Of a stretch of DNA of 64,000 bases, positions 3,792 through 64,000 are shown piece after piece (positions within the stretch are counted from its first letter, which is position 1; each line of letters begins with the position of its first letter). This DNA comes from Polynucleobacter sp. UK-Mo-2m-Kol15. Its GTDB lineage: Bacteria; Pseudomonadota; Gammaproteobacteria; Burkholderiales; Burkholderiaceae. The translations under genes and the position numbers were made by a program. Where the stretch lies: the NCBI RefSeq assembly GCF_018881505.1, contig NZ_JACVQC010000001.1, positions 434,001 to 498,000 of the forward strand, in the 5' to 3' direction. The notes below the pieces were generated by a model that saw only the letters and a list, made by a program, of their open reading frames with translations, ran no database searches and was not told the DNA's origin.

Positions 3792-4319
3792 CTATAAAGC
3801 TAATTTAATAGCTTTTCTGAGTTCTTCTTCGTTTATCTTGCCTAATTTGCTGCTAGTCGACTTCCCCTTGGCATCAATAATGATGGTGTAGGGGAGTGCG
3901 CCTTGAGAGTTGCCCATCTGCTTAGAAATACTACTACCCTCAAGCCCACCAATCACAATGGGGTAGGAAACTGGGGTATTTGCAAGGAATTCACGAATAT
4001 TAGAGGGTGAATCGATGCCGATGCCGACAAATAATACATTTTGACTCTTGAACTCTGTCTGTAATTGATCCAAAGTAGGCATTTCTTCAACGCAGGGAGG
4101 GCACCAGGAGGCCCAAAAGTTCACAACCAAGACTTTCCCCTGCCATTCTTTGGTATCGACCGATTTTCCATCGGGTGTTTGCCATGGATTGGCAAAAAAG
4201 GCTTTGATTGCGGGATCGTCAGCTAGCTCTGTTTTGAAGATCCATTGCGAAGTCAGCACTCCCGCAGCAAGGGCTACGAGGTTAAATCCAATGATGCTAA
4301 TCCACTGTCTTCGGTTCAT
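3792..4319 (-). CDS. TlpA-family membrane-anchored thioredoxin
   Basis: Periplasmic thiol-disulfide oxidoreductase of the TlpA/ResA/DsbE class, 175 residues. Residues 7-27 form an uncleaved or signal-type hydrophobic segment (ISIIGFNLVALAAGVLTSQWI). The thioredoxin fold follows, with the redox motif WASWCPPC near residues 70-77 and the cis-proline region ALPYTII near 142-148. A good Shine-Dalgarno sequence (AAGGAG, about 5 bases upstream) supports this start. Likely roles are cytochrome c maturation or periplasmic thiol reduction, but nothing nearby fixes the substrate. Its start lies only 26 bases from the divergent mpl start. Confidence 0.88.
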   Translation of the reverse strand: MNRRQWISIIGFNLVALAAGVLTSQWIFKTELADDPAIKAFFANPWQTPDGKSVDTKEWQGKVLVVNFWASWCPPCVEEMPTLDQLQTEFKSQNVLFVGIGIDSPSNIREFLANTPVSYPIVIGGLEGSSISKQMGNSQGALPYTIIIDAKGKSTSSKLGKINEEELRKAIKLAL

Positions 4320-22197: not shown

Positions 22198-22225
22198 AAA
22201 AAAGACCTCAATTGAGGTCTTTTTT
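22198..22225. terminator. Two-way rho-independent terminator between gap and fur
   Basis: AAAAAAGACCTC / GAGGTCTTTTTT is a perfect 12-base stem around an AATT centre, with A and T runs as the outer parts. The stem and U tract can act in either direction, serving gap (plus) and fur (minus). This is the clearest terminator in the window. Confidence 0.92.
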
Positions 22226-60321: not shown

Positions 60322-61053
60322 TTACTTTGTTGCAGTAAGTAGTTTTTGCGCATCTTTGGCTGCTTCAGTATCAGGATATTTGCTCACAATTTCGCTAAAG
60401 GTCTTCTTGGCAGCTGCTTTATTACCAGTCTCTAACTGCGCGTTACCTAAGGTCAACATGGCTGATGGAATGCGCGGATGACTTGGATAGCGTTTAATTA
60501 AGCTTTGTAGCTGGGCAATCGCGCCAGAATAGTCTTTGGTGGCATATTTGCTATTACCACTCCAAAAGAGTGCTAATGGCGTATAGGGGCTATCGGAATA
60601 CTTCTTAATAAAAGCAGAGAAGTCGCTATCCGCCTTTTTTAGATTGCCAGCTTGGAAGGTCTTTAATGCATCATCGTAAGCTTGTTTCTCGCCAGGTTGG
60701 ACAGTGCCGCTCACGCCCTCAATAGTGGCTGTACGAGGTTCAAGGTTACCTATGCGAGTATCGAGATCTTGGTAATAGGTTTTTTGGCTGGCGCCAATGT
60801 CGTCACCCTGCTTCTGAAGTACCTCTATCTTGCCCCTGAGCTCAGTATTTTCTACTTTCAGCCTATCGATCTGACTCTGTAATTCAAGCTGTGTAGTTGC
60901 TAGAGTTTTGCGTAAGTCTAAGATCGCCTTACGTGCATCATCATCGGCAAAGAGTGCCCACGCACTGTTAGGGGCACTCAAGAAAAGAGTGGCGATACTT
61001 AAACAAAACGCTCGTGAGAGCGTTTGTTTAAAAGAGTGTGGCAGGCTGCGCAT
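60322..61053 (-). CDS. cpoB: Cell division coordinator CpoB (YbgF)
   Basis: Periplasmic protein coordinating peptidoglycan synthesis and outer-membrane constriction through the Tol system. The 243-residue protein has a signal peptide (about 1-33, ending SAPNSAWA). A coiled coil follows at about 42-85 ([19 protein letters not shown]), the trimerisation segment. Then come three TPR-like units (about 123-240; [39 protein letters not shown]). Its start overlaps the pal stop at 61053, suggesting coupling. Confidence 0.95.
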
Positions 61054-61565
61054 CAGTTTGTAATATAGACGATGTCAGCACGACGATTTTCTGCCCAAGC
61101 TGCTTCGTTATCACCCTCAGCTTTTGGCTTTTCTTTACCAAAGCTGACTGCTTCCATTTGACCATCAGAAACGCCCATCAAGTTAAGGGATTGACGAACT
61201 GCATCCGAACGGCGTTGGCCCAACGCCAAGTTGTACTCTGCAGTACCACGCTCATCGGTATTGCCTTGAATGATGACTTTCTGCTTGGGATTCGCTTTTA
61301 AGAAGCTAGCATGTGCAGATAACTGTTTTTGATATTTAGTTTGAACAGTGTATTCATTGAGATCAAAATACACGCTGCGCTGGAAGAGGGGGCTGCTAGG
61401 ATCATTCCAAGGCTGTGAACTAAAGTTACTACCACCACCGGTACCGCTACCACTATTGGCGCTATTAACGTCATCCAGCTTAACGCTTGAGCAAGCCGCT
61501 AAAAATAATGTGGTGAGTCCAACGAGGGTGAGAGTTGCGGCACGGCGTGCGATAGAAGTTGTCAT
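61053..61565 (-). CDS. pal: Peptidoglycan-associated lipoprotein Pal
   Basis: Outer-membrane lipoprotein that binds peptidoglycan and TolB. From ATG 61565 the product is 170 residues. The signal peptide ends in lipobox LAAC with Cys25 as lipidation site. A Ser/Gly-rich linker lies at about 37-50. The OmpA-like domain has SVYFDLNEYTVQ near 66 and GNTDERGTAEYNLALGQRRS near 101-120, the diaminopimelate-binding signature. AAGGAT provides the ribosome-binding site. TTG 61571 is an alternative start. It is separated from tolB by the toxin-antitoxin pair. Confidence 0.96.
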   Translation of the reverse strand: MTTSIARRAATLTLVGLTTLFLAACSSVKLDDVNSANSGSGTGGGSNFSSQPWNDPSSPLFQRSVYFDLNEYTVQTKYQKQLSAHASFLKANPKQKVIIQGNTDERGTAEYNLALGQRRSDAVRQSLNLMGVSDGQMEAVSFGKEKPKAEGDNEAAWAENRRADIVYITN

Positions 61566-61616
61566 GATCAATCCTTTTTTCTACAAACAAGGTAAATAAA
61601 TAAGCTAATAGTTAAT

Positions 61617-61645: not shown

Positions 61646-61696
61646 TGGAAATTGCATTGAAATGCCGCATATATACACTTCGCTTATTTCCTTTTT

Positions 61697-61732
61697 TCCT
61701 CAATTGAGATAAAATAAATCCTCAAATGAGGA
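61697..61732. promoter_or_regulatory. Twin palindromic operator-like sites before the antitoxin gene
   Basis: CCTCAATTGAG (61698-61708, with the perfect palindrome CTCAATTGAG) and CCTCAAATGAGG (61720-61731) share TCCTCAA-TGAG. Their starts are 22 bases apart, about two DNA turns. TAAAAT at 61710-61715 between them is a possible -10. The second site overlaps the antitoxin ribosome-binding sequence (AGGAA). This is the expected layout for autoregulation by an Xre-type antitoxin. Confidence 0.6.
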
Positions 61733-61739
61733 ATTTAAT

Positions 61740-62225
61740 ATGCCCAGCATGATCCCAAAAAAGGCTGCGACAAAAGTGCTTCATAAACCCCAACTGGACT
61801 TATCTTTTTCCACCATTTACCGAGTTGAGCCCATAGATCGTATTAAGTTGATCCGAAACGGTGTGCCCGCCAGATATATCAATGTTATTTCTGATTCCAT
61901 GGGTATTACTAAAGAAACATTATTCAAGTTCTTGAATTTACCAAAGTCGACTATTGATAAAAAATCTGTCGCAAATCAAATGCTACCTATCGAGCAGGGT
62001 GAGCGATTGATTGGTATGGCTAAACTTGTGGGGCAAGTGGAGACTATTGTTTCCGAGTCGGGCAATCCAGATGGCTTTGACGCTGCTAAGTGGGTCGCTA
62101 GTTGGCTTGAAAAACCATCCCCAGCATTGGGTGGTGAGAAACCATCCGCGTATTTGGATACAGTCTCTGGTCAGGAGATGATTTCAGATCTCTTGGCAAA
62201 AATTCAAACTGGGGCATACGCATGA
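61740..62225 (+). CDS. Antitoxin of Xre/MbcA/ParS (DUF2384) family
   Basis: A 161-residue antitoxin expected to bind and neutralise the adjacent RES toxin and repress its own promoter. Residues about 40-100 form a helical Xre-like DNA-binding domain (GVPARYINVISDSMGITKETLFKFLNLP, as contiguous blocks). The C-terminal part (about 105-161) is the toxin-binding DUF2384-like region, with FDAAKWVASWLEKPSPALGGEKPSAYL (blocks), typical of ParS/MbcA antitoxins: 'W...P..ALGG..P..YL'. The stop overlaps the toxin start (ATGA). It lies antiparallel between pal and tolB. Confidence 0.93.
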   Translation: MPSMIPKKAATKVLHKPQLDLSFSTIYRVEPIDRIKLIRNGVPARYINVISDSMGITKETLFKFLNLPKSTIDKKSVANQMLPIEQGERLIGMAKLVGQVETIVSESGNPDGFDAAKWVASWLEKPSPALGGEKPSAYLDTVSGQEMISDLLAKIQTGAYA

Positions 62226-62710
62226 GTGTTCAAGCTGTTTGGAGAATTGCACTTGATACCCCCACGTTTAAAGCTGATGACCTTGGTGGGGAGGGCGCAA
62301 AAAAATCTGGCGGAAGGTGGAATAAGAAAGGGACTCCGGTTGTATACACCTCTGAGTCGATTGCCCTTGCTTGTCTGGAGACTTTGGTGCATCTTAATGC
62401 GCAAGGACTACCCCTAACTCGCTATCTGGTGCGGATTGATATTCCAACAAAAGTATGGGACCTGGCTAAAAGGTTTAATGCGAAAACAGCCGGCATTGCT
62501 TGGGATGCATTGCCAGCGGGAACCGCTAGCATTGAAAGAGGTCAGAGATGGCTGCAATCGAATGCAAGTGCTGTATTGTTAGTGCCTTCAGTTGTCATTC
62601 CGCAAGCAAGTAATGTATTGATCAATCCCCTGCATCCGGATGTCAAGTTGATTAAGGCTAAGAAAATTGAGAAATTTTCTTATGACCCACGCCTGGTGAG
62701 TTTGCCTTAA
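62222..62710 (+). CDS. RES-family NAD+ phosphorylase toxin
   Basis: A 162-residue RES-domain toxin; characterised members (MbcT, ParT and relatives) degrade or phosphorolyse NAD+ or modify targets with it. It has VWRIALDTP near 6-14 and GGRWNKKGTPVVYTSESIAL near 30-49 with Arg32, Tyr42 and Ser46, followed by CLETLVHL with Glu53. These match the R, Y, E, S positions of the family. A C-terminal VNPLHPD-type motif appears as INPLHPDVKLIK near 132. The ORF is intact and translationally coupled to the antitoxin, so the module is probably active. Convergent with tolB. Confidence 0.93.
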   Translation: MSVQAVWRIALDTPTFKADDLGGEGAKKSGGRWNKKGTPVVYTSESIALACLETLVHLNAQGLPLTRYLVRIDIPTKVWDLAKRFNAKTAGIAWDALPAGTASIERGQRWLQSNASAVLLVPSVVIPQASNVLINPLHPDVKLIKAKKIEKFSYDPRLVSLP

Positions 62711-62720
62711 GCGATTCGCT

Positions 62721-64000
62721 TTAGTCCATAAAAGGACCCCAGGATGGCTGACGTACATCAGACCCCGGAATAGTCAAGATTTGCTTGGAATTACCACTAA
62801 CGGACACTGCCGCCAAAACCCGTTTGCCGCCCACTTTAGTGGAGTAGAGAACATAACGACCATTCGCTGCAAATGAGGGAGATTCATCGCTAGATCCATC
62901 CGTTAGTGCCTGGGAATCTCCAGTGGCTAAATTAAGGATATGCAGACGAAAAGCCCCGCCAAGATTGGCGATATAGGCTAAATACTTTCCATCTGGCGAG
63001 ATGCGTGGAGAGGTCACGAAGCCTTGCTTGAAGGTAACGCGCTTTGCGCTCTCAGCCTGTTCGCCCTCAGCACTCATACGGTAAATCTGTGGATTGCCGC
63101 CACGATCGCTGGTGAAGTAAATGTAGCGACCATCCGCAGAATATTGCGGTTCGGTATCAATCGTACGACCACGAGTCAGGCGCTGTAAGTTACTACCATC
63201 GGCATTGATGCTGTAGATTTGAGTATTACCATCTTTGGAGAGGGAGATTGCTAATTTTTTGCCATCTGGAGACCAGGCTGGGGCGCTGTTATTACCCTTT
63301 TGATTGGAAAGGGGAATGCGACGACCTGTAGCTAGCTCATGAACATAAATCACTGGCTTGCGATCTTCAAAAGAAACGTAAGCCACTTTTTTGCCATCGG
63401 GTGACCATGATGGAGAAATAATAGGCTCACCACTATTCATGGCATTGCGAATATTTTGACCATCCGCATCGGAGATAACTAAGCGATAGCGTTTACCCTC
63501 CTTAATGACATAGGAGAGGCGCGTAGAGAAGATGCCCCGCTCGCCTAGCAATTTAAAGATGATGTCATCAGCAATTTTATGGGCTGCAGCGCGTAAATTA
63601 TCAGCGCTGGAATTGATATTCAAGCCGCCAAGACCTTCAGATTTACGAACATCAAAAAGTTTATAGCGAATCTCAAACTGACCTGCGCTAGTCTGCACTA
63701 CCGAACCCAGCACCAGAGCGTCCGCACCGCGGGCAGCCCAAGATGGGTAGTTTGGCGTTCCTTCATCACTTTCGCTGGCATTGCCATTTTCAGTATTTTT
63801 AAAGTAACCGCTACGAGCTAAGTCTTGACGAATAATGTCGGTAATGCTGATCGGCAATTTGTTTTCATCTTTAAATCGCATTACCGCGATTGGGTAAAGA
63901 GATTGGCCCACACCAGTAATTTCAATACTCATCTGCGCATGACTAGGAAGGCTGATTACGCCAAAGCCGAGAGCCAAAATCCACAAAAGGATCTTGATAA
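62721..64000 (-). CDS. tolB: Tol-Pal system protein TolB, partial (start outside window)
   Basis: Periplasmic beta-propeller protein that links Pal with the TolQRA motor. The frame is open to the right edge; the residues before SHAQMSIEITGVG (IKILLWILALGFGVISLP) are a signal peptide without an ATG in the window, so the true start lies beyond 64000. The N-terminal domain (about 20-165) is followed by five WD40-like propeller repeats with the TolB signatures SPSWSPDGKKVAYVS, SAPAWSPDGKKLAISLS, and TSPRISPDGKYLAYIA. The C-terminus is complete. The stop is 10 bases from the convergent RES toxin stop. Confidence 0.96.
   Translation of the reverse strand, partial: IKILLWILALGFGVISLPSHAQMSIEITGVGQSLYPIAVMRFKDENKLPISITDIIRQDLARSGYFKNTENGNASESDEGTPNYPSWAARGADALVLGSVVQTSAGQFEIRYKLFDVRKSEGLGGLNINSSADNLRAAAHKIADDIIFKLLGERGIFSTRLSYVIKEGKRYRLVISDADGQNIRNAMNSGEPIISPSWSPDGKKVAYVSFEDRKPVIYVHELATGRRIPLSNQKGNNSAPAWSPDGKKLAISLSKDGNTQIYSINADGSNLQRLTRGRTIDTEPQYSADGRYIYFTSDRGGNPQIYRMSAEGEQAESAKRVTFKQGFVTSPRISPDGKYLAYIANLGGAFRLHILNLATGDSQALTDGSSDESPSFAANGRYVLYSTKVGGKRVLAAVSVSGNSKQILTIPGSDVRQPSWGPFMD

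Follow-up and report, generated by a model that had tools for sequence, protein, structure and literature searches.

The window (by which is meant the whole 64,000-nucleotide stretch of Polynucleobacter DNA analyzed here) carries two tandem genes between pal and tolB. The upstream gene (61740–62225, + strand) encodes a 161-residue antitoxin of the Xre/MbcA/ParS type (PF20432, 1.3e-11; PF09722, 8.9e-10; NF049845, over cut-off), in which PF20432 and PF09722 both exceed their gathering scores, giving a helix-turn-helix and a C-terminal toxin-binding domain. The downstream gene (62222–62710, + strand) encodes a 162-residue, ParT-like RES-domain toxin (PF08808, 1.2e-28; NF049844, 6.1e-48) and overlaps the antitoxin gene by 4 nt (ATGA), placing an adjacent RES toxin in one operon with the antitoxin. 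As judged from these features, the gene pair is a RES-Xre (ParST/MbcTA-type) type II toxin-antitoxin module. The growth inhibition typical of such modules (through NAD loss or Prs ADP-ribosylation, neutralized by the antitoxin) is putative here, the toxin being a close sequence match to ParT. On one flank, pal (61053–61571, − strand) starts divergently about 170 bp from the antitoxin; tolB (62721–63986, − strand) forms the other. The operon stands antiparallel between pal and tolB, an arrangement common to 9/9 other close same-genus loci (L003–L011), and read-through from tolB would be antisense to the module. The two flanking genes directly adjoin, without the module, in 15/15 module-free genomes examined and also in two genomes (G145 and G021) that carry divergent antitoxin homologues elsewhere.

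In the antitoxin as modelled by AlphaFold2 (mean pLDDT 84), helices 58–65 and 69–77 stand at the expected place of the helix-turn-helix, 69–77 being the recognition helix; Ser70 within it is equivalent, by sequence alignment, to Arg67 of the Pseudomonas putida Xre antitoxin. Foldseek matched the model to 6d0h (ParS), 6gw6 and the DNA-bound 9r35 (both P. putida Xre), 8gug and the VPA0770-0769 complex, and more weakly to NatR (8qnl), an antitoxin of the same superfamily. The only DNA-bound Xre-RES structure among the structure-search matches was 9r35. The nearest solved sequence relatives were a ParS fragment for the antitoxin (2.6e-22) and 6d0h ParT for the toxin (4.6e-54), and the closest solved relatives of both window proteins are thus found in 6D0H and 6D0I, entries that we take to be Sphingobium ParST.

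Two palindromes precede the antitoxin ATG at 61740. Site 1, CCTCAATTGAGA (61698–61709, no strand), contains the perfect palindromic 10-mer CTCAATTGAG (61699–61708); site 2, CCTCAAATGAGG (61720–61731, no strand), contains the core CTCAAATGAG (61721–61730), in which the central AA is nonpairing. Their centers are 22 bp apart. A probable −10 hexamer, TAAAAT (61710–61715, + strand), lies between them and starts 6 nt 3′ of the site-1 center, so that site 1 ends just 5′ of it, and a Shine-Dalgarno-like GAGGAA (61728–61733, + strand) overlaps the 3′ half of site 2. An initial annotation had described twin palindromes at 22-base spacing with a possible −10 between them; direct reading of the sequence confirmed this description, with positions shifted by at most one to two bases, and the twin palindromes in front of the RES-Xre operon are real. 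A consensus promoter scan at this locus of the window returned no + strand promoter match.

Conservation and distribution of the paired sites

The antitoxin is present in 12/186 genomes of the genus, ten of which are close relatives (the window and L003–L011) with the module in one common chromosomal place. In 10/10 of these loci both sites stand at unchanged offsets from the start codon (cores at −41 to −32 and −19 to −10), and a check on loss of the pair upstream of close homologues thus found it kept throughout. The sequence CTCANNTGAG is exact in both sites of eight of the ten, L003 and L011 having one mismatch in one site each. Mean column identity across the ten loci was 0.97 and 0.95 in the site cores, as compared to 0.85 in the spacer and 0.70 over the 39 bp immediately 5′ of them; beyond these, in the direction of pal, identity climbed again to 0.87 and 0.91. 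Of two divergent homologues, one (L012, 51% identity) has the 22-bp pair with one mismatch in site 2, and the other (L013, 36% identity) has no 22-bp pair.

Dinucleotide shuffling of the 180 nt upstream never produced a pair of CTCANNTGAG sites at spacing 22 in 20,000 trials, and a lone copy arose in 2/5,000 shuffles of the same region. The 64-kb window holds five copies of CTCANNTGAG, which makes lone sites less special; the unpaired palindromes lie at 22207, 31610, and 47395. With at most one mismatch, CCTCAWWTGAG had 13 matches in the window against 5.4 expected, a number attained in 3/100 shuffles. The paired pattern TCAWWTGA-N14-TCAWWTGA occurs exactly at one place in the 2.18-Mb genome and at two more places with one mismatch; its reversed control pattern matched one genome place.

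The survey across Xre-ParS loci comprised 132 antitoxin loci, drawn from genus, family, class, and phylum searches together with two Asticcacaulis loci, and left from L002–L142 after removal of repeats (L040–L045, L071, L094) and of one locus at a contig edge (L036). These are the upper-ranked places, those further down being mostly weak or partial. A RES match lay downstream in 120/132 loci; a locus counts as lacking RES if phmmer found nothing matching the window toxin at 1e-3, and such loci may be decaying. A position weight matrix built from the ten Polynucleobacter loci and applied to the 122 others gave spacing 22 as best in 34/122, followed by 23 in 10, and in the shuffle control no spacing was best in more than 25 of 610. 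An earlier motif-free scan had found spacing 22 in 17/39 loci, nine of the 17 being close same-genus loci, and was for this reason superseded by the held-out tests. From the survey, 106 non-redundant loci were selected by common antitoxin 4-mers rather than by a tree, so that related loci remain. Four-fold cross-validation on this set yielded spacing 22 as best in 43 loci, 23 in 9, and 21 in 4, as compared to spacing 22 in 28/1060 shuffles and spacings 21 to 23 in 7/106 for the gene downstream.

When a scored twin was defined by a score of at least 14 and a spacing of 21 to 23, 45/106 real loci and 14/2120 shuffled sequences qualified (shuffles being scored with the all-loci model and real loci with the cross-validated models), and eight further real loci reached 14 at other spacings. 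The remaining 61/106 non-redundant loci had no twin above threshold; either the twin layout is common rather than universal, or the motif differs in those loci. All scored twins belonged to loci with a detected RES gene (45/95, against 0/11 without one; Fisher p 0.002), and the absence of twins in those 11 loci fits a need for the toxin. By a hand count of genus labels plus the named L046, the 45 twins span about 35 genera. Their half-site reads YCAW, with A at 0.94 and C at 0.96 at its two core positions. Three Xre-ParS genes lie within ~42 kb on a single contig of genome G1004 (L125, L126, L127), with RES undetected and no scored twin.

Eight plasmid loci were analyzed of 43 plasmid records with an antitoxin match. 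Spacing 22 was best in five, those of Paraburkholderia hospita, P. phytofirmans, Burkholderia ambifaria, Janthinobacterium lividum, and Rhodanobacter denitrificans. The plasmid loci of Sphingobium sp. RC1 and Acidiphilium cryptum gave spacing 21 with low scores (7.5 for RC1), and that of Sphingobium sp. V4 gave spacing 12 as best and 21 as second. The Sphingobium plasmid loci are therefore weaker in this respect than the window.

Promoter geometry and recognition of the half-site

In the 45 twins the best match to TATAAT falls at +6 from the site-1 center, which is where TAAAAT sits in the window. The mean match at this offset is 3.24/6, with 53% of twins having at least four matching positions, against 1.48 when averaged over all offsets. 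Because the −10 lies between the sites, site 2 covers the expected transcription start. The initial annotation had further suggested direct interference with translation start, as site 2 overlaps the ribosome-binding site. Relative to the site-2 12-mer, a Shine-Dalgarno-like tetramer was wholly outside in 20 of the 45 twins, partially overlapping in 14, inside in three, and absent in eight (start codons being assigned by a simple rule). With the tetramer wholly outside in 20/45 and overlapping in 17/45, overlap with the ribosome site is not the conserved feature, and this suggestion was not upheld as a conserved role.

In the P. putida Xre antitoxin, the dominant DNA interactions center on Arg67, and R67A abolishes repression (PMC12204516). 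Among 105 antitoxin columns, the column equivalent to Arg67 ranks first for covariation with half-site base 4 across the 45 twins (z 7.4, eta-squared 0.58). Second comes residue 94 (z 6.5), which is not part of the helix-turn-helix, an indication that shared ancestry contributes to the covariation; residue 73, the equivalent of Lys70, ranks sixth (z 3.5). Counted by half-sites, T at base 4 accompanied Ala in 65/76 and Pro in 8/8, and C accompanied Thr in 19/24, Arg in 9/12, and Gly in 4/4; Ser at the recognition position was mixed (35 T, 21 C). When Ala was tested by permutation versus all other residues, a grouping chosen after looking, the outcome was 5/20,000, and the column rank is the fairer measure because shared ancestry affects all columns. 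This covariation ties the sites to the antitoxin as reader, short of clean proof. A one-residue recognition code was considered and not upheld, since Arg accompanies C among the survey loci and the P. putida type pairs Arg or Lys with G.

Each of the two sites also tends to resemble the other in inverted form. Over half-site positions 4 to 8 of the 45 twins, an overall dyad accounts for 238/450 positions, as compared to 202 for a tandem arrangement and 200 for symmetry within each site, which lends weak support to one two-fold complex. Overall two-fold symmetry is only modestly favored across the family and is not clear within Polynucleobacter; the direct-repeat reading of the two sites was set aside, the overall dyad fitting slightly better by a small margin, and no case is rested on the dyad. 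The site centers of the 45 twins are asymmetric, with TT in 19 and AA in 7 at site 1 and AA in 17 and TT in 8 at site 2, as though the outer half-sites differed from the inner ones in how they are read; this asymmetry is absent from the Polynucleobacter loci.

Comparison with the Pseudomonas putida operator

RES-Xre modules are described as widespread, and the RES-Xre operator is treated in the study of the P. putida PXR system, which reports the following (PMC12204516). PXR is repressed at an imperfect inverted repeat, and a 4:2 Xre-RES complex binds the S4 repeat; the 2:2 form does not bind DNA. Isolated Xre is a monomer, and its repression is partial and not significant. AlphaFold 3 placed a second Xre dimer ~20 bp from S4, a position with which a crystal contact agrees, and in vitro a single S4 duplex was bound per 4:2 complex. 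Symmetric S4 variants bound more weakly in vitro with in vivo repression intact, which means that a near-perfect palindrome is not necessarily the best site.

The xre-res module of P. putida KT2440 (PDB 6GW6, 9R35) resembles that of the window in gene order, antitoxin fold (Foldseek TMq 0.60–0.65), and RES toxin. The two differ in half-site (CTCA in the window, mostly GGCA in the P. putida type), in spacing (22 versus 21 bp), and in the recognition helix (Ser70-Thr71 versus Arg67-Thr68). As sequence, the window has the dyad sites in the promoter and the second site ~20 bp away (here 22) of the P. putida Xre-RES operator. Arg67 is replaced by Ser70, and it is the position rather than the residue that covaries; for this reason the locus is grouped with RES-Xre in general, its operator sequence not being of the P. 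putida type. The second P. putida site itself was proposed from a modelled complex together with a crystal contact, and the passages on it do not call it a palindrome (PMC12204516).

A search for P. putida-type relatives in a Pseudomonas-like genus gave 49 places in 37/199 genomes, of which 30 loci were examined; a smaller genus had such relatives in 2/25 genomes. In a motif-free scan of 260 nt upstream, spacing 21 was best in 13/30 loci. Clear 21-bp twins with a −10-like hexamer between the dyads are present in 12/30 (L157–L164, L166–L169; e.g., CCGGCATATGCCGCATACTTGTCGGCAAACGCCGG 5′ of the start codon), the thirteenth spacing-21 locus (L175) appearing spurious. The half-site of the twelve is mostly GGCA (L163 and L164 vary), and all have [RK]-T in the recognition helix. 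Over the 84-residue query, eight of their antitoxins show 92–98% identity and four 70–73%. The twelve are mutually close relatives and represent a few independent cases at most. When 1300 nt upstream were searched at spacings 19 to 24, the twin ranked first or tied first in 9/12 and was not top in L162–L164. In the P. putida type the overall dyad accounts for 145/192 positions, against 126 for tandem and 121 for within-site symmetry, and in L163 and L164 14/16 positions match under the overall dyad, against 8/16 within the site. S4 of KT2440 would presumably correspond to site 2 of the P. putida-type twins.

The other 18 P. putida-type loci have no GGCA dyad within 1300 nt upstream at spacings 19 to 24. 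A general statement that twinless loci all have altered helices does not hold, as nine of the 18 carry Lys-Thr (L170, L176–L180, L184–L186). Long upstream open frames (396–552 nt before the match), again with no GGCA dyad, were observed in L170–L173, L176, L178–L180, and L184–L186; at the recognition position L171–L173 carry Lys-Met and the others Lys-Thr. These relatives are possibly domains within larger proteins.

Probable autorepression by an Xre-RES complex and alternative readings

Taken together, the two palindromes most probably constitute the autorepression operator of the RES-Xre operon, with the antitoxin and its toxin as reader. The initial proposal of a two-site autorepression operator that is read by the antitoxin and brackets the −10 is borne out by conservation in the genus, the held-out peak at 22 bp, the fixed −10-like hexamer, and the base-residue covariation. 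Its assignment of the antitoxin as repressor was retained insofar as the covariation points to the antitoxin as reader of the sites, and was revised as to the antitoxin acting alone, the repressor probably being the Xre-RES complex, because P. putida Xre is monomeric and weak and because scored twins accompany only loci with a RES gene. Each palindrome would be taken by one Xre dimer. Site 1 would be occupied just 5′ of the −10, in the spacer towards the −35, and site 2 over the expected transcription start, and filled sites would exclude RNA polymerase. A single 4:2 Xre-RES complex, in which a RES dimer joins two Xre dimers, may clamp both sites, and this is the most likely reason that the spacing of 21 to 23 bp is kept. 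On the analogy with P. putida, we moderately favor one 4:2 complex spanning both sites; both the binding itself and the 4:2 stoichiometry are inferred for Polynucleobacter. As carried over from the P. putida model (PMC12204516), a fall of antitoxin relative to toxin would yield 2:2 complexes unable to hold DNA, and the promoter would open.

In P. aeruginosa NatRT, too, binding to the module's own promoter is a property of the 4:2 complex, a smaller state being unable to bind (PMC11535050). The main text of that paper nowhere uses the terms "palindrom," "operator," or "inverted repeat," and no operator sequence was found in the passages on GndRX (PMC12457610), SlvAT (PMC7301842, where a Sphingobium COG5654 toxin is named), or NatRT (PMC11535050). 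Searches of open-licence PubMed Central listed no description of a twin RES-Xre operator, and neither the layout of two sites across the family nor its covariation with the recognition position was found in print in those searches. Another comparison is provided by HigA/GraA, an antitoxin family that is presumably different from that of the window antitoxin. Like the latter, HigA of P. aeruginosa is a helix-turn-helix antitoxin of a toxin-antitoxin system with two palindromes, which it binds as two cooperating dimers; unlike the arrangement proposed here, both palindromes lie within a 28-bp duplex, the dimers sit on opposite DNA faces, and there is no toxin bridge in that structure (PMC6987408).

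The same twin operator could instead be filled by separate Xre dimers, or by separate Xre-RES complexes, which would cooperate as neighbors in the manner of phage repressors or HigA dimers, with no bridge. The cooperating HigA dimers speak for this arrangement, as does the in vitro binding of one 4:2 complex to only one S4 duplex (PMC6987408 and PMC12204516). Viral contigs L150, L151, and L154 point the same way, as they have CTCAWWTGAG pairs at 22 bp (4080–4111, 4043–4074, and 355–386, respectively) 5′ of short ORFs that look by eye like Cro/CI-type helix-turn-helix proteins; spacing alone thus does not demand a 4:2 complex, and 22 bp as a signature exclusive to RES-Xre is ruled out. Weighing against unbridged dimers are the monomeric state and weak repression of P. 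putida Xre alone, the lack of scored twins in all 11 loci without detected RES, and the asymmetric, mutually inverted sites of L163 and L164, which fit one two-fold complex. We regard an unbridged arrangement as the main rival, and as the less likely of the two.

Two further readings dispense with the antitoxin as reader. A transcript started upstream might fold into a hairpin in which the ribosome-binding site is buried, so that less antitoxin is translated: 61696–61760 folds at −15.7 kcal/mol (z −3.76) with the Shine-Dalgarno paired, and this element overlaps site 2 in Polynucleobacter and at least partly in 17/45 twins. A transcript starting near 61724 loses this structure (−3.3 kcal/mol, z −0.26), and given the −10 between the sites such a transcript is the likelier case. 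The constant place of the −10-like hexamer and the Shine-Dalgarno lying wholly outside site 2 in 20/45 twins also count against it. A half-site core fixed as letters and an operator base that tracks the recognition helix are not what RNA pairing would lead one to expect, and this reading is very improbable. More improbable still is that another regulator, or the divergent pal, makes use of the palindromes, their position before the antitoxin being accidental. The start of pal ~170 bp away and the lone CTCANNTGAG sites elsewhere in the window would suit it; against it, the pair recurs 5′ of Xre-ParS genes in other genera and on plasmids with different annotated neighbors, covaries with the antitoxin recognition helix, and is unique in the genome in its exact form.

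Returning to the bridging complex, a more general statement is narrowly favored: twin dyads 21 to 23 bp apart with the −10 between them would be the general bivalent RES-Xre operator for one 4:2 complex, the toxin dimer would serve as spacing ruler, and the residue before the conserved recognition-helix Thr, with its neighbors, would select half-site letter 4 (T, C, or G). If so, the toxin would belong to the repressor as a structural component, and the missing second site would be the CGGCATATGCCG-type upstream dyad of the P. putida relatives. The comparative signal, composed of spacing, toxin-gene association, and covariation, points to the place of a second site in many species, and through it the idea of one complex on two sites becomes directly testable; the layout could also help predict operators, promoters, and start codons of RES-Xre modules from sequence.

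Queried by tblastn with the antitoxin, the phage collection returned no match. On the viral contigs with like pairs, a third copy of CTCAWWTGAG is present in L150 and L151. One identical CTCAWWTGAG pair is common to five of the nine viral contigs (L148, L149, L152, L153, and L156), with no ORF of at least 60 residues starting right behind it, and L155 is a tandem repeat.
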